The notes under the pieces: model-generated | The model's database searches: none | What the model saw: the letters and a program-made list of their open reading frames with translations, nothing else | What the model was told of the DNA's origin: nothing | NCBI GenBank assembly: GCA_002786355.1 | Contig: PGCO01000003.1 | Span: 1 to 64,000, forward strand | Source: Sediminibacterium sp. FEMGT703S | Lineage (GTDB): Bacteria; Bacteroidota; Bacteroidia; Chitinophagales; Chitinophagaceae | Direction of reading: 5' to 3' | Length of the DNA: 64,000 nucleotides | Part shown: positions 20,316 to 22,605 of the stretch, in pieces | Layout: the number at the start of each line of letters is the position of its first letter | How positions within the stretch are numbered: position 1 is the stretch's first letter | Position numbers and translations under genes: made by a program

Positions 20316-21515
20316 ATGTCTAGTTTTATTATAACCTGCCCTAATTGTAGCCACCAATTTGAACCCGGCGATACGATGCGAGATGAAATTGAGAAAGAGC
20401 TGCGTGGTAAAATGAAAGAATGGCAAAAGAAAAAAGAAATTGAAACCGCTGAACTACTTGAAGCAGAGAAAAAGAAGATGCAAACTGAAATGCAAGAAGC
20501 AGTCAGAAAATCTTTGGCTGCTGATTATGAGAATCAGCTTAAATTGTTGCAACAAGAAGTTACAGATAACGCGGAAAAATTAAAGGAGTCTAGAAGAAAA
20601 GAATTGGAATTCTTGCAAAAAGAACAAGCTTTAAAAACAAAAGAAGCGGAAATGCAATTGACCATTCAACGTCAGTTAATGGAAGAACGCGCTAAATTAA
20701 AAGAGCAACTACAAAAGGAAGAATCCGAGAAAATTAATTTAAAAGAGCAAGAATACCAATTAAGAACCAAGGAGTTGGAGAAGCAAATAGAAGACCAGAA
20801 AAAACTGGTAGAAGAAATGCGCAGAAAGTCTGAGCAGGGAAGTATGCAATTACAAGGCGAAGTGCAGGAGCTGATGTTAGAAGAAATGCTGCAATCCACT
20901 TTTCCATTTGATAAAATTGAAGAAGTGGGCAAAGGGGTACGAGGCGCGGATTGTATACAAATCGTACGTAATCAATTTGGGAATGAGTCTGGAAAAATTA
21001 TTTATGAGAGCAAGCGAACCAAAGACTTTTCTAATGAGTGGATTGAAAAACTTAAAAAAGATATGCGCAGTCATGGGGCAGATGTAGCAGTGATTGTTAC
21101 GCAAACTTTCCCTAAAGACATGGATAGATTTGGAGAAAAAGATGGGGTGTATATCTGTACATTTAATGAGGTAAGAAGTGTGGCTTTATTGTTGAGGAAT
21201 GCTTTGTTAAAAATTGCTGATGCTCGAAAAAGCCAAGAAAATAAGGGTGATAAAATGGTGATGCTTTACGATTACTTAACTGGCACTGAGTTTAGCGAAC
21301 AATGGAAAGCCATTCGAGAAGGATTTATGAGCATGCGTCAAAGTATTCAAAAAGAAAGAGATACAATGGAAAGACTTTGGAAAGCCCGTGAAAAACAGCT
21401 CGAAAAAGTTTTATTAAATGCCGCACATATTCAAGGATCAGTAGAAGGAATTGCTGGCGCAGATGCGGTTAATTTGAATTTATTAGAAGATAATGACAAT
21501 TTGTTAATTGATTAA
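20316..21515 (+). CDS. DUF2130 domain protein: zinc-knuckle, coiled coil and nuclease-like C-terminal domain
   Basis: CPNCSHQFEPGD N-terminus, long coiled coil, GADCIQIVRNQFGNESGKIIYESKRTKDFSNEWIEKLKKDMR. Confidence 0.85.
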   Translation: MSSFIITCPNCSHQFEPGDTMRDEIEKELRGKMKEWQKKKEIETAELLEAEKKKMQTEMQEAVRKSLAADYENQLKLLQQEVTDNAEKLKESRRKELEFLQKEQALKTKEAEMQLTIQRQLMEERAKLKEQLQKEESEKINLKEQEYQLRTKELEKQIEDQKKLVEEMRRKSEQGSMQLQGEVQELMLEEMLQSTFPFDKIEEVGKGVRGADCIQIVRNQFGNESGKIIYESKRTKDFSNEWIEKLKKDMRSHGADVAVIVTQTFPKDMDRFGEKDGVYICTFNEVRSVALLLRNALLKIADARKSQENKGDKMVMLYDYLTGTEFSEQWKAIREGFMSMRQSIQKERDTMERLWKAREKQLEKVLLNAAHIQGSVEGIAGADAVNLNLLEDNDNLLID

Positions 21516-22605
21516 TTTCTTTGACCATATCAACCCAGAAGGTAAAGCCAATATTCCCTCAAGAAGGAAACCCATGTTTCCCATTAAGGAAGACTTACGC
21601 CAATATTTAAAACGTTATGGCAGAGAGGTCTTACTCCCCTTTAGCTATGAAGATTTACAAAGATTTACGTATACCATTCCTTTAAAAGATAAGAATGGGA
21701 AAGATACTGCTTGGGAACAAGTATCGTATGATATGCGAGAATGGGATTTCTTAAGGGAAAGCTTGGTAAAAGTATATGCGATTTTAAAAACAGAAGGCGA
21801 TTTAAGTTTTGCAAACCACTTAGATGTAGCAAGAATTGATTATTGTTATTTTGGGAATAGTCAGCCATTTCGTATTAGAATAGTGAATAAGTTTAACGAT
21901 AATTACGATCATTATTATATCAAAAGAGCAGATGCCAGTAGGATTTATGGATTGGAGTTAGAGCATATTCTATCGCCTAACCGCATTACATATTTTACAA
22001 GTAAAGACACGCTTATTGAAGAACATATTCCTGGTATTCCGGGTGACTTGTTTATCCGAGATTATGTTGATGCAAGTAATACCAATAAAATCAGGCTAGC
22101 TAAAGAGTTTGTGAAATTTAATGAACGTTGTTTTGTTCAGTTATTAGGAGATATGCGTTCTTATAATTTTGTCGTAAATATCATTCCGGATATTGAAGAC
22201 TTTCAGTATCGTATTAGGGCAATTGATTTTGATCAACAATCGTATGAGGGACGTAAAAATTTATACCTACCCCAATTTTTTAAAGACAATCAGGCTTTGG
22301 TAAATATGGTCTTAACGCATTTAGACAAACGATCAATCGAACAATACCAAGCTGAAGAAAAAACAATGATGACTTTTAGATTAGTGTCTTCTCGATATAG
22401 AGTGAAAGAACTATTAGACATTATGGACGATGATCCAATTTCTACAAATGAAAAAATAGCTGAATTAAGAGAAGCTTTATTTATTCATTTTAATTATCCT
22501 CCATATTTAAAAGCACGCACAATGGGTCAATTATTAAAAACCCATTTGAAATGTACGCTACTAAAATATTTAAAGAAAATGCCCAAAACAGGCAAGTACG
22601 ATTAA
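21508..22605 (+). CDS. Uncharacterised protein with protein-kinase-like motifs
   Basis: TTG start overlapping the DUF2130 stop by 8 nt (ATG at 21574 alternative); YYIKRAD, EEHIPGIPGDLFI, LGDMRSYNFVV, AIDFDQ. Confidence 0.6.
   Translation: MINFFDHINPEGKANIPSRRKPMFPIKEDLRQYLKRYGREVLLPFSYEDLQRFTYTIPLKDKNGKDTAWEQVSYDMREWDFLRESLVKVYAILKTEGDLSFANHLDVARIDYCYFGNSQPFRIRIVNKFNDNYDHYYIKRADASRIYGLELEHILSPNRITYFTSKDTLIEEHIPGIPGDLFIRDYVDASNTNKIRLAKEFVKFNERCFVQLLGDMRSYNFVVNIIPDIEDFQYRIRAIDFDQQSYEGRKNLYLPQFFKDNQALVNMVLTHLDKRSIEQYQAEEKTMMTFRLVSSRYRVKELLDIMDDDPISTNEKIAELREALFIHFNYPPYLKARTMGQLLKTHLKCTLLKYLKKMPKTGKYD

Follow-up and report, generated by a model that had tools for sequence, protein, structure and literature searches.

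Whether a coiled-coil protein of the DUF2130 family and a kinase-like protein, encoded by two genes that overlap by eight nucleotides, form a hitherto undescribed module for DNA maintenance, stress or defence is the question raised by this locus, for which a preliminary description had proposed exactly such a role. The window, that is, the whole stretch of 64,000 nucleotides that was analysed, comes from the chromosome of a Chitinophagaceae-type bacterium whose closest matches, among the best 80 of at least 588 relatives, are Sphingobacteriia 24-36-13 and members of Sediminibacterium. The two genes and their overlap have the coordinates first given for them (Table 1). Here, we argue that the locus is likely to hold genes for an RmuC-like coiled-coil nuclease and for an atypical kinase independent of it, which in one lineage have come to form an operon with overlapping reading frames.

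Table 1. Positions of the two genes and their sequence features in the window.
Feature	Position	Strand	Basis
DUF2130 gene, 399 aa, ATG start	20316..21515	+	PF09903, 241 bits; AlphaFold2 model; Foldseek
CPNC, residues 8-11, one pair of possible zinc ligands per chain	20337..20348	+	C8/C11 invariant in 26 homologues; recurs in 22 loci
Coiled-coil helix, residues 20-173	20373..20834	+	DSSP on model
Predicted nuclease core, residues 178-281	20847..21158	+	invariant columns; model topology
Motif I of predicted nuclease core, E182/E185	within 20847..21158	+	invariant columns
Motif II of predicted nuclease core, D212	20949-20951	+	invariant columns
Motif III of predicted nuclease core, E231 and K233	21006-21008 (E231), 21012-21014 (K233)	+	invariant columns
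Overlap TTGATTAA, DUF2130 stop and kinase-like start, 8 nt	21508..21515	+	sequence; kept in 10 relatives
Kinase-like gene, 365 aa, TTG start	21508..22605	+	Bacteroidota family without Pfam or NCBIfam model
N-lobe residues K139 to E152	21922..21963 (K139, 21922-21924; E152, 21961-21963)	+	invariant
Catalytic loop G214-D215-M-R-S-Y-N220	22147..22167	+	D215/N220 invariant
IDFDQQ, residues 239-244, including D240; DFG-like motif for metal binding	22222..22239	+	invariant

The DUF2130 protein gave a strong match over the full domain of PF09903 (E=1.6e-71), above the curated cut-off of 26.7 bits, and belongs to a subfamily characterized by CxxC and GAD...ESKRTK. A second subfamily, seen by direct translation at three loci (L111, L113 and L116), carries the same motif series as GETLE, KGD and FEMK with other spacing, and this KGD...FEMK subfamily outscores that of the window on the Pfam model. 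The CPNC start, the long helix and the GADCIQIVRNQFGNESGKIIYESKRTK stretch on which the preliminary description had based its suggestion of a nuclease are all present. In the alignment of 26 homologues the invariant columns include C8, C11, E182, E185, E189, D212, E231 and K233, among which are the motif I glutamate, motif II aspartate and motif III (D/E)xK expected of PD-(D/E)XK enzymes. The AlphaFold2 model built on this alignment (mean pLDDT 81) places helix 178-195, strands 200-203, 213-218 and 224-233, helix 241-252 and strand 257-262 in the αβββαβ order of a restriction-nuclease core, and its low pTM of 0.38 is to be expected from the long coiled coil. Foldseek matches in the PDB were mostly restriction-fold nucleases (BstEII, the SPARDA nuclease, MspJI, DdmD, Bax1, EcoT38I and BamHI), with E-values of 0.0027 or weaker and low TM-scores that are partly due to the coiled coil; the seemingly unrelated Rep15:Rab3B complexes, Vps29 and RNA polymerase subunits were also among the matches. 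A sequence search of the PDB with the protein returned nothing meaningful. The nuclease fold is thus seen in the predicted model and the nuclease residues in the aligned sequences, in agreement with the core first suggested, and with high confidence we predict that DUF2130 constitutes a real PD-(D/E)XK nuclease family. We found no mention of DUF2130 or COG4487 in two surveys of PD-(D/E)XK proteins, and in the portions of the literature available to us DUF2130 received single passing mentions only, in seemingly unrelated work.

The N-terminal cysteines had been likened to a zinc knuckle. An N-terminal CxxC was found at 22 of 22 DUF2130 loci that share the core motif; each chain contributes only a single CxxC pair. 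A zinc site would consequently need two chains, which might come together in the manner of a Rad50-type hook. In such a soluble, RmuC-like protein the coiled coil with its CxxC head would serve to dimerise or tether the PD-(D/E)XK domain, which in turn would cut DNA by means of a divalent metal presumably held by E182/E185, D212 and E231 and aided by K233. Helicobacter heilmannii prophages also encode a DUF2130 protein that shares this CxxC and the GADC...ESKR core (L141:3542-4810, 7 records), and use of the family by phages is accordingly possible.

The kinase-like protein had no match of useful significance in Pfam, NCBIfam, PADLOC or the sequences of the PDB, and its assignment relies on conserved residues and predicted fold. 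Across an alignment of 51 sequences (the window protein and 50 relatives) and a further 29 loci from the phylum, K139, E150, E152, D215, N220, D240, F241, D242, Q243 and Q244 are invariant, and the catalytic loop reads GDMRSYN, GDMHSSN or GDMHAGN, with GDM(R/H)xxN as the general form. The AlphaFold2 model from the 51-sequence alignment (mean pLDDT 84, pTM 0.82) has an N-lobe of β strands 105-113, 121-127 and 132-140, helix αC at 143-155 and β4/β5, followed by αD, αE (194-207), the loop 212-220, strands 220-227 and 232-239 and a helical C-lobe. The β3 lysine, αC glutamate, catalytic aspartate, asparagine and DFG-type aspartate of a two-lobe kinase are consequently all found at their places in model and alignment, and the kinase-like signatures first noticed in this reading frame hold. 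All 50 matches listed from a fold search of the PDB were kinases or pseudokinases (best E=6e-4), with low TM-scores of 0.19-0.32.

The second protein could instead be a pseudokinase or an ATP-binding scaffold, likewise independent of DUF2130. Such a role would agree with the low model confidence at residues 214-216 of the catalytic loop and at 243-251, and with the absence of any sequence-profile link to established kinases: none of the 51 family members matched a Pfam kinase model, and hhalign against small APH, HipA and Pkinase profiles gave probabilities below 1%. We regard it as unlikely, however, as none of the five canonical catalytic positions varies among the sequences from the phylum. 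The prediction of an active atypical kinase is made with good confidence; this enzyme would probably bind Mg-ATP through K139-E152, N220 and D240 and may use D215 for transfer of phosphate to its substrate.

The overlap of the two genes is the most conspicuous trait of the locus. An in-frame TAA lies directly 5' of the TTG with which the kinase-like reading frame begins, and the overlap of exactly eight nucleotides is kept in 10 relatives in which the genes lie side by side, with TAA, TGA or TAG as the stop and TTG or ATG as the start. Two other paired relatives differ, one having an overlap of four nucleotides (ATGA) and the other a kinase-like start just past the stop. Retention of the overlap despite differing stops makes both the TTG start and translational coupling credible in this clade, and coupling from the DUF2130 gene to the kinase-like gene is plausible in the Chitinophagaceae lineage, where it would probably proceed by termination and reinitiation across the eight nucleotides. 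One of the relatives, Sediminibacterium roseum, carries a DUF2130 copy (L007:4764-6005) only 51% identical to that of the window, while most paired loci show 69-80%; the exact overlap is kept there next to a kinase gene of 75% identity despite the divergent DUF2130, for which a replacement in place is possible. That this locus and nine other relatives preserve the exact overlap hints at some selection for coupling.

Outside this clade the association is loose. Among 297 genomes of the phylum, 81 harboured the kinase-like gene, 47 harboured DUF2130 and 20 harboured both, and in only three of these 20 were the genes adjacent: the genome of the window, one of the same genus (G150) and one of the same family (G126). 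In the other 17 the genes were about 26 kb apart in one case and otherwise on different contigs or hundreds of kilobases apart. Co-occurrence over the 297 genomes was slightly above chance (p=0.013, uncorrected for kinship) and within the class no better than chance (p=0.38). Of the 80 nearest kinase loci, 16 had DUF2130 in the flank, each of them Chitinophagaceae-type; this count favours close relatives since the 80 are the best of at least 588, and some of the non-paired loci lie on contigs too short to tell. A pair kept together across lineages was thus seen neither in the genomes nor among these nearest loci, and adjacency was confined to Chitinophagaceae-type genomes.

These distributions bear directly on the proposal that the two genes form a genuine module in the Sediminibacterium-type clade, in which the kinase would phosphorylate or otherwise control the nuclease and coupling would fix their stoichiometry for DNA maintenance. 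The overlap shared by 10 relatives with different stop codons speaks for such a module, as does the mild co-occurrence across the phylum, but the rarity of adjacency, the lack of association within the class and the occurrence of each gene mostly without the other render it improbable. The survey of gene neighbourhoods, suggested at the outset as a check of the proposal, confined the pair to close relatives and in doing so turned against it; the suggested coupling survives for this lineage and does not extend to a bond between the two genes elsewhere. Since each gene is common by itself in other genomes and the two are neighbours in no more than a few close relatives, the arrangement probably represents an unremarkable operon of local extent and not a novel two-gene system.

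Of the 74 genomes sampled from the class, 58 had the kinase-like gene (one of them as a fragment), and the identity of this gene drops with kinship in the sample of 297 genomes, as expected of vertical inheritance. One genome (G250:C1:3158133-3158413) contains short kinase-like pieces only, which look like a decaying copy. Collections of plasmids, phages and viral contigs returned no match to the kinase-like gene, and the idea that it belongs to a mobile element was dropped for this reason.

A role in defence would make the nuclease an anti-phage effector and the kinase its sensor or switch. The relation of the fold to nucleases from defence systems, such as SPARDA and DdmD, and the presence of DUF2130 in Helicobacter prophages are compatible with this. 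Yet the pair showed neither the match to a known system nor the defence-island or mobile context expected of anti-phage genes: PADLOC gave no match for the kinase-like protein and, for DUF2130, only a weak LmuB match spanning mostly the coiled coil. Among the matches listed for 57 proteins encoded beside DUF2130 in other genomes, the PADLOC model mad2 occurred three times and two further PADLOC models once each; a general methyltransferase model was matched by 3 of the 57, possibly the same three as mad2, and the other Pfam names were diverse and mostly metabolic or regulatory. In the window the neighbours scanned were dihydroorotase, phosphopantetheinyl transferase and dCTP deaminase, and the others resemble housekeeping genes as judged from their translations. 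With a vertically inherited kinase gene that is absent from mobile collections, an anti-phage pair is highly improbable, and the defence-module reading was dropped. The two proteins do not make up an obligate two-component system, and nothing points to a role in defence.

The surroundings of the genes vary even within the family. In four genomes of the same family (G033, G115, G254 and G293) DUF2130 is followed by the phosphopantetheinyl transferase (ACPS) gene with no kinase gene between, and in three of these four dCTP deaminase comes next after ACPS. The kinase-like gene, on the other hand, lies in the order CysK/CBS, BtuF-like, kinase, FBA in many Chitinophagaceae and in the order histidine kinase, LytTR, kinase in Pontibacter, the names in both cases having been assigned by eye from the sequence. 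Neighbours were called by a simple longest-ORF rule, by which small genes may have been overlooked or wrongly delimited, and one locus (L081), whose kinase reading frame was not called by it, does not figure in the neighbour table for the 80 loci. In four genomes of other classes (L189, L192, L195 and L197) bshA (BshA match 1e-174) is followed immediately by the kinase-like gene, and in two of the four a glyoxalase-II-like gene lies on the other side of the latter. This gene order, together with the nearby cysteine-synthase/CBS-type gene in many Chitinophagaceae, raises the doubtful prospect that the family consists of vertically inherited atypical kinases of Bacteroidota that act in low-molecular-weight thiol metabolism, be it of bacillithiol or of cysteine. 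BshC occurs in 291 of the 297 genomes and is thus nearly universal in the sample, so that profiling the kinase gene against bacillithiol synthesis by presence and absence is not informative.

Given the varied neighbours and the separate occurrence of the two genes, the simplest history is one in which separate genes were united in a single clade and are held there by an overlapping operon; two separately widespread chromosomal genes would first have become neighbours and then have come to overlap in one Chitinophagaceae lineage. A tempting but unsupported hypothesis of nuclease-kinase defence is thereby removed. What remains is that DUF2130, by label a domain of unknown function, appears from alignment and model to carry a complete PD-(D/E)XK active site. 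The mildly new part is the kinase-like family, which is widespread in Bacteroidota, has all the catalytic residues of a kinase fold without being covered by a family model, and merits a name and an assay.

Compared with known systems, the locus resembles the HipA kinases (PF07804) in encoding a kinase fold from a two-gene operon. A profile of 12 HipA proteins gave no match to the kinase-like protein, and DUF2130 is presumably not a HipB-like DNA-binding antitoxin; a toxin-antitoxin reading of HipA type was dropped for want of profile similarity to HipA. Elsewhere in the same genome there are five separate HipA_C matches, two of them close together on opposite strands (G000:C15:264687-266186). 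Aminoglycoside phosphotransferases share the pattern HGDLHxGN...ID, and the GDMHxGN loop of some kinase-like lineages and the IDFD motif recall these APH-like kinases (PF01636), from which the family differs in having no Pfam or profile match to them. For DUF2130 the closest parallel is RmuC (PF02646/COG1322), a coiled-coil protein predicted to be a PD-(D/E)XK nuclease and described as limiting inversions at short inverted repeats (PMC1189080). A separate RmuC is encoded in the genome of the window. PF02646 was not among the Pfam matches of DUF2130 up to E=1, the match found by hhalign is limited to one helix of 21 residues, and the N-terminus is a CxxC in DUF2130 but a transmembrane helix in RmuC. 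In both, however, a long coiled coil precedes the PD-(D/E)XK domain, and the motif I helix is alike, with QGEVQELMLEE in one and QGNWGEMLLES in the other.
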